Below, piece after piece: positions 299-3,555 of a stretch of DNA of 5,975 bases. The stretch comes from Actinomycetota bacterium (GTDB lineage Bacteria > Actinomycetota > Humimicrobiia > Humimicrobiales > Humimicrobiaceae): assembly GCA_015711775.1 (NCBI GenBank), contig JACVJB010000072.1, forward strand, positions 1 through 5,975, written 5' to 3'. The notes beneath the pieces are model-generated. The model did no database searches and was not told the DNA's origin. It saw only the letters and a program-made list of their open reading frames with translations. The position numbers and the translations under genes were made by a program. Position 1 is the first letter of the stretch; every line of letters begins with the position of its first letter.

Positions 299-568
299 TT
301 ATACCTCAAATGTATAGCTGTCAACTTTTGCAACAATTGCCGCATCTATTGCCCTGTCTTTTGTCTCTTCTGTCTGGCGCGCTGAACTTCCGCTCACAAC
401 AAGGACTTTTTCATTAATTCCAACTCCGACAATATCAACGGCAACCACAAAACTGTCAAGAAGATTTCCGTCAAGATCAATGGCTTTTACAATTACCAGC
501 TTTTTACCTGTTAAATTATTATCTTTCTGTGTGGAAACAATGGAACCTACAACCTGTCCAAGAATCAT
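299..568 (-). CDS. BMC vertex protein, EutN/CcmL family (copy 1)
   Basis: This 89-residue protein matches the EutN/CcmL (BMC-P, Pfam EutN_CcmL) family along its whole length. Such proteins form pentamers that cap the vertices of icosahedral bacterial microcompartment shells in the cytoplasm. Visible family hallmarks are the N-terminal G-x-V-V-G-S-I-V strand (4-11), GKKLVIVKAID (21-31), VAVD (42-45), the conserved GSSAR loop (60-64) and IDAAIVAKVD (74-83). The length is typical. The ATG start is supported by GGAG five bases upstream. It is the last gene of the fhs-folD-BMC run, 19 bases after the second vertex gene, so the two are probably co-translated. The family is clear; which compartment type it serves cannot be told from this protein, and no BMC-H hexamer gene is in the window. 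Confidence 0.9.
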   Translation of the reverse strand: MILGQVVGSIVSTQKDNNLTGKKLVIVKAIDLDGNLLDSFVVAVDIVGVGINEKVLVVSGSSARQTEETKDRAIDAAIVAKVDSYTFEV

Positions 569-587
569 TTTATCTCCAAAAATAAGC

Positions 588-869
588 TTATTGGTCTTTG
601 TTATATATATCTGCAGTCTCTATTATTGAGACAATTGTGGCATCTGAGGGCACGTCATTTCCTTCAAACGGCCATGTTGCCTCCATGCCGTCTTCATACC
701 CTACATAATCTCCCACACCGGCGTCTGTTGTATCCACAGCAATAATGGGCCTGCCCCAGTTCTTGCCGTTGCTTAAGTTTACAGGCTGGATTATCTGGAG
801 TTTTTTTCCAACCAGCCCTTTATACTTAATAGTGGCTACAACACTGCCTATAACTTTTGCATAAAACAT
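588..869 (-). CDS. BMC vertex protein, EutN/CcmL family (copy 2, divergent loop)
   Basis: A 93-residue EutN/CcmL-type microcompartment vertex protein, paralogous to the shorter copy that follows it. The family pattern is plain: AKVIGSVVATIK at the N-terminus (4-15), GKKLQIIQPV (21-30), IAVD (43-46), DAGVGDYV (49-56) and a C-terminal SDATIVSIIE strand (75-84). It differs from the usual family in the loop where most members have GSSAR or GNSAR: here the aligned residues read GMEAT (61-65), followed by WPFEGNDVP. The ATG start fits the family N-terminus exactly, although no good Shine-Dalgarno sequence lies at the normal distance (only a GAAG about 14 bases upstream). It may therefore be translated less well or depend on coupling. 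It starts 38 bases after folD. The divergence between the two copies suggests distinct vertices or assembly roles rather than a recent duplication. Confidence 0.87.
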   Translation of the reverse strand: MFYAKVIGSVVATIKYKGLVGKKLQIIQPVNLSNGKNWGRPIIAVDTTDAGVGDYVGYEDGMEATWPFEGNDVPSDATIVSIIETADIYNKDQ

Positions 870-907
870 AAATTAATTATACTTCAATTTTTATTTTTTT
901 GCCTTTT

Positions 908-1816
908 TTATTTGGAAAGTCTTTTTGCCGCTTTAATTGTATTTGATAAAAGCATGGCTATAGTCATTGGGCCAACGCCTCCGGGAACAGGAGTTATAAA
1001 TCCTGCTTTTGGTTCAACTTTCTGGTAATCAACATCTCCAATCAAAGTAGCGCCTTTTACATCAAAGTCGGCTTTTCGCCATTCAAGCAGTTCGGGTGAG
1101 GCCTTGTCGGCAGTAATCCTGTTAATGCCCACGTCAATTACTGTTGCCCCCTGCTTTACCATGTCTTCCTTAATAAGATAAGGCACGCCTGCTGCAACTA
1201 TTACGATATCTGCATCTTTGGTATGCATTTTCAAGTCTCTTGTTTCAATGTGGCAAATAGAAACAGTTGCCCATTCATTCAATAGCAGAAGAGTACATGG
1301 TTTTCCGACAATCTCGCTGTGTCCCACCATTGTGGCATTTGCGCCCTTTATGGTGATGCCTTCCCTTTTTAAAAGCTCAATTATTCCTGAAGGGGTTGCA
1401 GGCACAAGGCATTCCTGCTGCGCAACAAGTCGACCCATGTTAACCGGATGAAAACCGTCGACATCTTTTTCAGGAAGTATTGCTTCAAGCACATCATTCT
1501 TATTTATCTGAGCCGGAAGCGGAAGCTGGACAAGTATTCCATGAATGTCCGCTCTTTTATTTAATTTGTCTATTTCCTTAAGAACGTCAGATGTAGTTGC
1601 TGTATCCGGCATTTTGATCTCTTCAGAGATAAAGCCGACCTCTGCGCAACCTTTCTGCTTATTTGCAACATATACTTTAGATGCGGGATTATCGCCAACA
1701 AGGATTACTGAAAGACCGGGCTTTACCCCTTTTGTCCTTTCCAGCTCAGCCACTTCCTGCTTTATCTCATTCTTGATATCTGCCGCTATTTTTGTTCCAC
1801 TTATAATTTTTGCCAT
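908..1816 (-). CDS. folD: Bifunctional methylene-THF dehydrogenase / methenyl-THF cyclohydrolase
   Basis: FolD interconverts 10-formyl-THF, 5,10-methenyl-THF and 5,10-methylene-THF in the cytoplasm with NAD(P)(H). It is the step after Fhs. The 302-residue length is slightly above the ~285 of E. coli FolD. The N-terminal catalytic domain shows YVANK with the catalytic lysine at K53, HGILVQLPLP with Q97, and EKDVDGFHP with D120, equivalent to E. coli K54, Q98 and D121. The Rossmann domain carries VGHSEIVGKP (164-173), and the C-terminus has the PGGVGPMT signature (278-285). Residue H166 sits where many NADP-dependent FolDs have arginine (VGRS), so cofactor preference is open. The ATG start is preceded by GAGAGGA five bases upstream. 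It lies 41 bases after fhs and 38 before the first vertex gene, in one apparent operon. Confidence 0.97.
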   Translation of the reverse strand: MAKIISGTKIAADIKNEIKQEVAELERTKGVKPGLSVILVGDNPASKVYVANKQKGCAEVGFISEEIKMPDTATTSDVLKEIDKLNKRADIHGILVQLPLPAQINKNDVLEAILPEKDVDGFHPVNMGRLVAQQECLVPATPSGIIELLKREGITIKGANATMVGHSEIVGKPCTLLLLNEWATVSICHIETRDLKMHTKDADIVIVAAGVPYLIKEDMVKQGATVIDVGINRITADKASPELLEWRKADFDVKGATLIGDVDYQKVEPKAGFITPVPGGVGPMTIAMLLSNTIKAAKRLSK

Positions 1817-1857
1817 TATGGTCCTCTCTTTCTTTTTAAACTTTTAAAATTCTGTGT

Positions 1858-3555
1858 TTAAAATAATCCCACAATCTTGCCGTTCTTATCTATGTCAACT
1901 CTTGTTCCTGCAGGCACTTTTGGAAGACCGGGCATTGTCCTCATTTCACCAAGAAGAGGATATAAAAATCCTGCGCCGACTGATGCCCTGATATCCCTAA
2001 TAGGCACTTTAAAGCCTCTTGGCCTGTTTTTAAGACTTGGATCATGTGAGAGCGAGAGATGCGTCTTAGCCATACATATGGGAAGCCTGTCAAAACCCTG
2101 TTTTGTATAAATTTCAATTTTCTTTTCAGCAAGAGGCAGGTAATCAACTCCCTCGGCACCGTAAATTTTTGTGGCAATTGTTTCAATTTTTTTCTTAATC
2201 GGCCAGTCAAGGGGATAGAGGAACTGGAATTTGGATGGTTTTTCGGCAGCCTTAACAACAGCTTCTGCAAGCTCCTCTCCGCCTTCGCCGCCTTTGAGCC
2301 ATACTCTGCTTACCAGCGCATCTTCAGCGCCTGCCGCTATTGCTTTTTCTCTTATGGCGTCAATTTCTTCTTTTGTATCAGAATCAAAATTATTAACGGC
2401 AACAACAACAGGAACGCCAAACATTTTCATATTTTCAATCATTTTTTCAAGATTCTCACAGCCTTTTACGACGGCTTCAACATTTGGCCTTTCCATAGCT
2501 TCTTTGTCAACAGGCTGGCCGGGTATAAATGAAAAGCCTCCGCCATGCATTTTAAGCGCCCTAACAGTGCACACTACAACAACAGCGTCAGGAGTTATTC
2601 CGCTGTAACGGCATTTGATATTCATGAATTTTTCAGCGCCCATGTCAGCGCCAAAACCGCTCTCTGTTACAACGTACTCTCCAAGCTTTACAGCAATCTG
2701 GTCAGCAACTATTGAACTGTTTCCATGCGCAATGTTTGCAAAAGGTCCTGCATGCACAAAACATGCCCCATGCTCAAGAGTCTGAAGCAGATTTGGTTTT
2801 AATGCATCCTTCATAAGCACTGTCATTGCACCGGCGCATTTTATATCCTCAGCAGTAACCGGCTTGCCATCGTAAGTGGAGCCGAAAACTATTTTACCGA
2901 GTCTTTCCCTTAAATCCTGAAGGCTTGTAGTAAGAGCAAGAATTGCCATAACTTCAGAGGCTACTGTGATGTCAAATCCTGTTTCCCTCGGAAGGCCGTT
3001 GCCGTCTCCTCCAAGGCCGACTATTATCTGCCTGAGCACTCTGTCGCTTATATCCACCACCCTGTTCCAGGTTATACTGAAGGGATTAATATTTAAATCA
3101 TTGCCCTTCATAAGATGAGTATCTATAAATGCAGCAAGCAGATTATGCGCCATTCCCACAGCATGAATGTCTCCTGTAAGATGAAGGTTAAAATCCTCCA
3201 TTGGAATAACCTGTGAATGGCCGCCGCCTGCTGCGCCGCCTTTTATGCCGAATACCGGGCCCAGCGAGGGCTGCCTGATTGCAGTTATGGTTTTTTTGCC
3301 AATCCTGTTTAAAGCCTGGCTCAGGCCTATTGTTGTTACTGTTTTCCCTTCACCAAGTGGTGTTGGAGTAATGGCAGTAACATCAATGTACTTGCCATTG
3401 GGTTTGTTTTTCAAATCCTCTAAAATTTCGAGCTGGACTTTTGCTTTGTAATTGCCATAGAGCTCAAGATATTTTTCGTCGATTCCTATGGACTGAGCAA
3501 TTTCTTTAATTGGTTTGATTTTTGCCGCCTGAGCAATTTCAATGTCGCTTAGCAA
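1858..3555 (-). CDS. fhs: Formate--tetrahydrofolate ligase
   Basis: Fhs (formyl-THF synthetase) makes 10-formyl-THF from formate, THF and ATP, the formate-fixing step of the Wood-Ljungdahl methyl branch; run in reverse it can yield ATP. The 565-residue protein is full length (the family is about 555-560). Visible hallmarks are the N-terminal DIEIAQAAKIKPI, the ATP-binding TPLGEGKT (65-72), RQPSLGP (94-100), GIKGGAAGGG (103-112), PMEDFNLHLTGDIHAV, PRETGFDI, RALKMHGG and the usual C-terminal ...GLF. The start codon is TTG. It is supported by AAAGGGG (3562-3568) six bases upstream and by alignment with the family N-terminus. The gene leads the operon fhs-folD-BMC vertex-BMC vertex, and its leader holds a promoter and alternative hairpins. 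No extra N- or C-terminal encapsulation-peptide-like extension is visible. Confidence 0.98.
   Translation of the reverse strand: MLSDIEIAQAAKIKPIKEIAQSIGIDEKYLELYGNYKAKVQLEILEDLKNKPNGKYIDVTAITPTPLGEGKTVTTIGLSQALNRIGKKTITAIRQPSLGPVFGIKGGAAGGGHSQVIPMEDFNLHLTGDIHAVGMAHNLLAAFIDTHLMKGNDLNINPFSITWNRVVDISDRVLRQIIVGLGGDGNGLPRETGFDITVASEVMAILALTTSLQDLRERLGKIVFGSTYDGKPVTAEDIKCAGAMTVLMKDALKPNLLQTLEHGACFVHAGPFANIAHGNSSIVADQIAVKLGEYVVTESGFGADMGAEKFMNIKCRYSGITPDAVVVVCTVRALKMHGGGFSFIPGQPVDKEAMERPNVEAVVKGCENLEKMIENMKMFGVPVVVAVNNFDSDTKEEIDAIREKAIAAGAEDALVSRVWLKGGEGGEELAEAVVKAAEKPSKFQFLYPLDWPIKKKIETIATKIYGAEGVDYLPLAEKKIEIYTKQGFDRLPICMAKTHLSLSHDPSLKNRPRGFKVPIRDIRASVGAGFLYPLLGEMRTMPGLPKVPAGTRVDIDKNGKIVGLF

Follow-up and report, generated by a model that had tools for sequence, protein, structure and literature searches.

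Microcompartment vertex genes behind fhs and folD in Humimicrobiia probably mark the chromosomal site of an aldolase-type metabolosome locus

Introduction

The window analysed here is an entire contig (C69, 5975 bases) of a metagenome-assembled genome (MAG) of the class Humimicrobiia, which comprises 1.44 Mb in 294 contigs and is 67.7% complete. Its minus strand carries, in order, lepA with the 5′ end cut, a gene for a 176-aa protein, fhs, folD and two genes for vertex proteins of a bacterial microcompartment (BMC), BMC-P1 and BMC-P2 (hereafter P1 and P2). We consider it likely that P1 and P2 cap an aldolase-type metabolosome, and that their spot behind fhs-folD marks the chromosomal site of the metabolosome locus and not a folate function. 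Genomes, contigs and loci are designated G, C and L, respectively.

Results and discussion

Two vertex genes behind fhs and folD

The four genes concerned are:

1858..3555, minus strand: fhs, formate--tetrahydrofolate ligase (565 aa, TTG start, Shine-Dalgarno, PF01268 E=1.9e-266)
908..1816, minus strand: folD, methylene-tetrahydrofolate dehydrogenase/cyclohydrolase (302 aa, PF00763/PF02882)
588..869, minus strand: BMC-P1, the EutN/CcmL vertex protein gene nearest folD (93 aa, PF03319 E=9.5e-22)
299..568, minus strand: BMC-P2, the second EutN/CcmL vertex protein gene (89 aa, PF03319 E=2.4e-25)

All four family calls exceed the curated Pfam cut-offs. Against PF03319 (cut-off 25 bits) P1 scores 77.8 bits over profile positions 1-82 of 83, and P2, which is nearer to canonical CcmL/HO BMC-P, scores 89.3 bits over positions 1-83. 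We assign both as EutN/CcmL vertex proteins, with a pentamer role predicted by homology to solved BMC-P chains. They look to be under purifying selection (dN/dS 0.03-0.09 in six pairs, with dS saturated in several). The intergenic gaps from fhs to P2 are 41, 38 and 19 bases. An earlier, sequence-only reading of this DNA had given coordinates, families, strand and gaps that proved exact on re-checking; it had also seen no clear terminator, and our scan returned no minus-strand terminator-like site between fhs and P2.

The main BMC locus lies elsewhere in the same genome

Six PF00936 domains were found in the window's genome (G000), on contigs C207 and C16. The main locus is interrupted there. 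Its first part encodes PduS/RnfC, a PduT-like BMC-T, a class II aldolase, BMC-H and PduL; after the contig break follow PduL, aldehyde dehydrogenase (AldDH), BMC-H, BMC-T, LarA, GlcD, a GlcF-like protein (in two frames), GcvH and RACo. Shell genes, AldDH and a phosphotransacylase thus occur in one locus, the combination that characterizes an AldDH-type metabolosome, and do so on a single contig in L106 and L108. The class II aldolase (PF00596, FucA-like, under equivalog cut-offs) is the signature enzyme of the metabolosome of Planctomycetes and Verrucomicrobia (PVM). Among the annotated main-locus families we recognized no lactate/malate dehydrogenase (the alcohol dehydrogenase, AlcDH, role), no acetate kinase and no glycyl radical enzyme, the remainder of the genomes not having been searched for the last. 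In relatives with longer contigs the locus is headed by two more BMC-P genes (P3 and P4) and, mostly, by DeoR; none of the three was seen in the window's genome, where C207 stops within PduS.

The sequence-only reading had offered, as one of its options, that P1-P2 form a satellite locus, with the main BMC locus at another place in the genome. This is supported by the BMC-H and BMC-T genes found in the same assembly together with their enzyme cargo. Among the best 120 of 7999 candidates, a search with AldDH gave a group at 57-93% identity, followed by sequences at 45-51%. Where named, the members of the closer group are Actinomycetota/Humimicrobiaceae, some called just 'propionaldehyde dehydrogenase'; the search did not type the enzyme. 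The BMC locus of G014 also encodes, between BMC-T and the aldolase, a sugar ABC transporter of the ribose type and a TIM barrel resembling epimerases (L109:9631-14278).

The gene order is conserved in relatives

BMC genes occur in 23 of 35 genomes of the family, and the PF00936 and P1-profile matches coincide in those 23; in a set of 41 genomes, BMC-H/T and BMC-P co-occur in an identical 17. Orthologs of P1 (E ≤ 2.3e-46) were found in 21 of the 23 BMC-positive family genomes and lie behind folD in 20 of them, 18 with fhs on the contig and two (G004, G006) with P1 after a folD 3′ end at the contig edge. In G048 the gap after folD spans ~456 bases without a recognized gene. The single deviation is G008, with P1 directly behind fhs and no folD between them. 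The remaining two BMC-positive genomes are uninformative on P1: the assembly of G009 is without fhs and the G042 contig stops ~73 bases past folD.

A contig-wide scan gave 17 P1 loci, largely the family genomes again. Sixteen have folD upstream, two of them only its end, and in L141 fhs precedes P1. Sixteen of the 17 contigs are labelled Actinomycetota, Actinobacteria, Actinomycetes or one of two Candidatus species, Humimicrobium oleiphilum and Calidifonticultor daggyaiensis, both of the class Humimicrobiia; one is labelled 'bacterium'. The best 120 of 4577 matches to P1 come from the same Actinomycetota/Humimicrobiaceae group, one cluster excepted. This cluster (P0022) holds 63 P1-like sequences with 70% identity to the window's P1 and the source label Nitrososphaeraceae archaeon; it is perhaps mis-binned.

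Because P1 trails folD in 20 of 21 P1-bearing genomes and P1 and P2 look purified by selection, the fhs-folD-P1-P2 layout is not chance; the order on which the sequence-only reading had built is kept in relatives. Seven contigs (L106, L108, L111, L114, L142, L147 and L151) carry P1-P2 and the main locus together; L114 has just the folD end upstream of P1. No BMC gene follows P2 over the remaining 6.6 and 13 kb of the G018 and G004 contigs, respectively, and in G001, G002 and G009 a CoA-transferase precedes the DeoR-P3-P4 head; P1-P2 are therefore a satellite there. A convergent BlaI/MecI-type repressor gene sits between P2 and the main locus at L106:12959-13342 and L111:5413-7071, and L111 adds an M56, BlaR1-like gene.

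BMC-free genomes keep an empty site

Twelve of the 35 family genomes are BMC-free. P1 and P2 are absent from all 12, with no P1-profile match, and in ten of them folD comes behind a full-length fhs. Five (G007, G019, G024, G015 and G016; loci L183-L187) show an empty site consisting of fhs-folD, BlaI and RACo with no shell gene; BlaI is accompanied by an M56 gene in four of the five and by a further gene of ~460 aa in three (radical SAM in G007). By profile score, the empty-site RACo matches the RACo that closes the BMC locus in BMC-positive genomes: empty-site copies score 924-998, three BMC-positive copies 1005-1012 and other intact copies 360-614, except for one in G017 that scores 909 and is located away from the empty site. 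In G016, RACo is followed by a family 3 solute-binding protein gene, likewise in the BMC-positive loci L196, L197 and L109. G003 and G017 retain fhs-folD-BlaI, and RACo is not there. Because the empty-site genomes keep the flanks only, P1 and P2 vanish with the compartment while fhs-folD stays.

On a tree of formate--tetrahydrofolate ligase (FTHFS; 29 rows, omitting G009 without fhs, the G013 fragment and G041-G050, with the G018 row cut to 494 aa), BMC presence takes four changes, three of them forced by starred branches; support at several forks is 80-92. The recurrence of the same site makes a single gain at the family's base, followed by three losses, the simplest reading of the history. 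The window clusters on this tree with G001, G002, G004, G011 and G018, referred to below as its clade.

Transcription of P1-P2

Three further features of the window bear on transcription:

3651..3679, minus strand: predicted fhs promoter TTGTAA-N17-TATAAT (consensus match, recurs upstream of fhs in relatives)
876..881, minus strand: TATAAT box of a predicted leaderless P1-P2 promoter, ending 6 bases before the P1 ATG, without Shine-Dalgarno
1..298, no strand: AT-rich contig end downstream of P2, with no DeoR or other BMC gene recognized

Of 23 family genomes scanned, 14 carry TTGTAA-N17-TATAAT ahead of fhs, BMC-free ones among them. Taken singly, such hits also arise in 3.5 to 21% of shuffles, and weight attaches to the recurrence alone; the stretch available in G015 was just 60 bases. 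The gene before fhs (3785-4315, after lepA) encodes the 176-aa protein, which has a lipoprotein-like start, kin at the equivalent spot in many family genomes and no match in Pfam or NCBIfam. Immediately before P1, the TATAAT box without Shine-Dalgarno is present in five of the six clade genomes (the window, G001, G002, G004 and G018, not G011), and a comparable arrangement was seen at 4 of 109 other called open reading frames of those loci, whose starts were called mechanically. On this consensus match, a leaderless promoter of their own is possible for P1-P2 in the window's clade.

Stems of at least 7 pairs were found in five of 15 folD-P1 gaps scanned (G004, G010, G018, G020 and G022). Two BMC-positive relatives have terminator-like hairpins with a T-rich tail between folD and P1: that of G020 has 17 pairs (z -7.3), and folding of the G022 gap revealed another hairpin, stronger than the first, with a loop of 18 bases and a five-U end (z -3.95). 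The G018 and G004 gaps fold well and have no T run. Given these hairpins in two relatives, the possible own promoter in the window's clade and operon-like gaps in others, location is conserved and co-transcription, by prediction, is not. The single operon of the sequence-only reading thus stands as far as order, short gaps and the lack of a terminator in the window go; it is qualified by the possible promoter of P1-P2, and as a conserved principle we reject it. Separate regulation of the vertex genes, which that reading had named as telling against it, is in part predicted, from the G020 and G022 hairpins and the window's TATAAT box. A search for a riboswitch or RNA leader of fhs or P1 returned four matches at E 5 or lower, each under its gathering score (best E 0.47), and this candidate was rejected.

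Cargo and predicted chemistry

Short helix-like ends with linkers, resembling encapsulation peptides (EPs), were recognized by eye at the N-termini of AldDH and PduL and at the C-terminus of the aldolase. Inspected in the same way, the termini of Fhs and FolD have no EP-like end, and both proteins were therefore rejected as cargo. FTHFS stop-to-stop frames span 569-593 aa in BMC-positive and 568-577 aa in BMC-free family genomes (the broken G018 and the G013 fragment omitted), and FolD has 302-308 aa in 13 of 14 BMC-positive rows, the G008 copy extending to 376. A cysteine near position 38 (38-52, depending on the start) is present in all 27 complete BMC-T, in 24 as part of CPGK; for the three without CPGK its position was compared unaligned. 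Both BMC-T of L106 match PduT structures, and Cys38 of PduT presumably binds an Fe-S cluster. As a marker of the substrate, fucose isomerase is uninformative: PF02952, its C-terminal domain, occurs in 33 of the 35 family genomes, BMC-free ones included.

In the mechanism we propose, the shell capped by P1 and P2 would be that of a class II aldolase-type metabolosome, with its main locus on other contigs of the same genome. Through their EP-like ends, aldolase, AldDH and PduL would enter the lumen; there a fuculose/rhamnulose 1-phosphate-like sugar phosphate would be cleaved to dihydroxyacetone phosphate and lactaldehyde, and lactaldehyde converted to acyl-CoA and then acyl phosphate. PduS and the PduT-like BMC-T, with its conserved cysteine, would export electrons. 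In the cytosol, LarA and GlcD/GlcF would take L-lactate to D-lactate and on to pyruvate. Fhs and FolD would stay cytosolic, for one-carbon supply or, where acetyl-CoA synthase exists, for the Wood-Ljungdahl methyl branch. In the window's clade P1-P2 became a satellite, probably with their own leaderless promoter and possibly with read-through from fhs.

Several observations weigh against this reading. G012 (97% complete) retains intact-looking P1, P2 and a five-gene BMC-P array, but no main locus was found; PF00936 matches there just twice, one of the matches being broken by a TGA stop, and a main-locus BMC-T is missing. The contig with P2 runs out past BlaI, at the expected start of the main locus, and RACo of the BMC site was not seen either, so that G012 perhaps represents an assembly gap or a partial loss of the compartment, perhaps in decay. 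The aldolase, LarA and GlcD score under NCBIfam equivalog cut-offs, and substrate and lactate route are read from their families. The P1 promoter is a prediction by consensus match, not a measurement, and P1 looks operonic in G005, G012 and G021 (short gap, Shine-Dalgarno-like stretch, no promoter-like site). Finally, P1-P2 stay by fhs-folD where the main locus has moved (G018, G004), which leaves room for a selected link. The gene broken by TGA in G012 is a BMC-H of the satellite array (L124:6604-6864).

Vertex paralogs at fixed positions

A BMC-P tree of 85 sequences was built from loci L096-L135 and the window, with 15 sequences of L198-L200 left out; two G008 rows were assigned to fhs1 and fhs2 by hand, and few columns and a long-branch warning limit it. 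The sequences fall into nine groups by gene position (fhs1, fhs2, main1, main2 and sat1-sat5) with 8 changes, the minimum. P1 falls together with gene four of a separate array of five BMC-P genes, and sat4 is nested inside fhs1, which is therefore not a single clade. BMC-positive genomes of the 41-genome set have 2 to 11 PF03319 matches. G021 has nine, and eight PF00936 matches, four of which sit in two tandem BMC-T genes.

The array constitutes a third locus, in which each of the five tandem BMC-P genes forms its own orthologous group (L107:5504-7184, L122:1329-3019, L124:6604-8284; also L117, L135 and L198-L200). In L107, L122 and L124 this locus includes BMC-H and sits between gltX and the PBP1A gene. 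Ahead of the satellite BMC-P array, at a distance of ~100 bases, a PF02952 domain is encoded in two genomes (G041:C278:822-1199 and G042:C53:54-356).

A speculative and rather unlikely extension of the metabolosome reading is that the nine position-locked BMC-P are nine dedicated vertex types. The supply of P1 and P2 would then be set by the one-carbon locus and that of P3 and P4 by a sugar-responsive DeoR operon, and the corners of one compartment, hence its closure and permeability, would shift between sugar fermentation and one-carbon metabolism. The family combines nine BMC-P groups at nine fixed positions, two of them behind fhs-folD, with lineages that have lost every shell gene and retain the flanks; with fixed groups and shell-free lineages at hand, the purpose of the extra vertex types is directly testable.

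Alternative explanations of the layout

Quite unlikely, in our estimate, is a homoacetogenic sink, in which electrons exported by the PduS/PduT-like proteins would be used by the Wood-Ljungdahl methyl branch, and this use would keep fhs, folD, RACo and the BMC genes together. The series cooS-acsB-acsC-fhs-folD-P1-P2 in G005, G012 and G023 is consistent with it, as is the closing of the BMC locus by RACo, an AcsV-like corrinoid activator. Full AcsB is present in six of 17 BMC-positive genomes, the window's own included, with fragments in three and none in eight. However, no AcsB match was found in G014 (98% complete), G021 (98%), G022 (94%), G020 (90%) or G018 (85%), all of which have fhs-folD-P1-P2, and on this ground the sink was rejected as a general reason. 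While fhs comes after cooS-acsB-acsC in the BMC-positive G005, G008, G012 and G023, acsC-fhs adjacency is also found in the BMC-free G003, G007, G017 and G019, so the acs-fhs link is independent of the compartment. The BMC-site RACo is moreover a second paralog, present in BMC-free genomes as well. Some members may run a Wood-Ljungdahl sink, but the layout is not explained by it.

Next in order, and likewise with little chance of being correct, is a tie of vertex supply to formate or one-carbon flux, as the sequence-only reading had put forward. The compartment would make or use formate or a one-carbon-tetrahydrofolate unit, and expression of P1 and P2 would be tied to it by sharing the fhs-folD operon. 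The order kept in 20 of 21 P1-bearing genomes, the short gaps with no terminator in the window and the fhs promoter element recurring in 14 of 23 genomes agree with such a tie, as does the stay of P1-P2 beside fhs-folD in G018 and G004. It fares poorly against the rest of the evidence: Fhs and FolD are without an EP-like end, FTHFS frames are of similar length whether or not a compartment is present, ten of 12 BMC-free genomes retain a full-length fhs with folD behind it, and terminator-like hairpins separate folD from P1 in G020 and G022. Nor was a glycyl radical enzyme, such as a formate-lyase, among the annotated main-locus families, the genomes as a whole not having been searched for one.

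That P1 and P2 are pentameric scaffolds for folate enzymes and not shell parts is very improbable. Their seat behind fhs-folD would suit such a role, as would G012, which keeps them with no main locus found, but none of the 12 BMC-free family genomes has a P1-profile match, although ten have full-length fhs, and at the empty site P1 and P2 are gone together with the shell genes. An assembly or binning artefact, conceivable for a window that makes up an entire contig (5975 bases) of a MAG 68% complete and split into 294 contigs, is refuted by the relatives, since the order recurs in MAGs of many independent projects and in two congeners.

Comparison with known systems

The metabolosome reading places the locus close to the fucose/rhamnose metabolosome of the PVM group, which belongs to Planctomycetes and Verrucomicrobia, whereas the present locus is from Actinomycetota. 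It adds PduS, the PduT-like BMC-T, LarA, GlcD, the GlcF-like protein, GcvH and RACo, and in it neither a lactate/malate dehydrogenase nor acetate kinase was recognized. The pdu compartment of Acetobacterium woodii has what we take to be a different signature enzyme. It likewise combines a BMC and the Wood-Ljungdahl pathway in one organism, and the part of its description covered here makes no mention of BMC-P behind fhs-folD (PMC7593272). In the portion of the survey of Axen et al. (2014; PMC4207490) considered, the GRM5 loci of Ruminococcus, Roseburia inulinivorans and Clostridium phytofermentans share DeoR, a PduS homolog and a class II aldolase with the present main locus, in which, unlike GRM5, no glycyl radical enzyme was recognized. 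According to the same portion, PVM-like loci also have a class II aldolase, mostly DeoR and usually no core AlcDH; they differ from the genomes described here, with up to 11 PF03319 matches each.

Satellite BMC loci are likewise shell-only genes away from a main locus, as far as the main text of Sutter et al. (2021; PMC8217296) describes them, whereas those described here are fixed behind fhs-folD and in seven relatives share a contig with the main locus. Neither formate nor tetrahydrofolate occurs in the main text of that catalogue, whose supplements may hold these loci, and the word 'microcompartment' does not occur in the part considered of a paper on actinobacterial Wood-Ljungdahl genomes including clade UBA1414 (PMC7325909). 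In the literature on Humimicrobiia taxa and on folate genes with microcompartments we found no published account of BMC-P genes behind fhs-folD. The family adds to the known BMC types an aldolase compartment whose locus includes PduS/PduT-like, LarA and RACo genes. What we describe would be a new arrangement of genes for an organelle of known kind, an aldolase metabolosome in which as many as nine vertex paralogs are locked in position.

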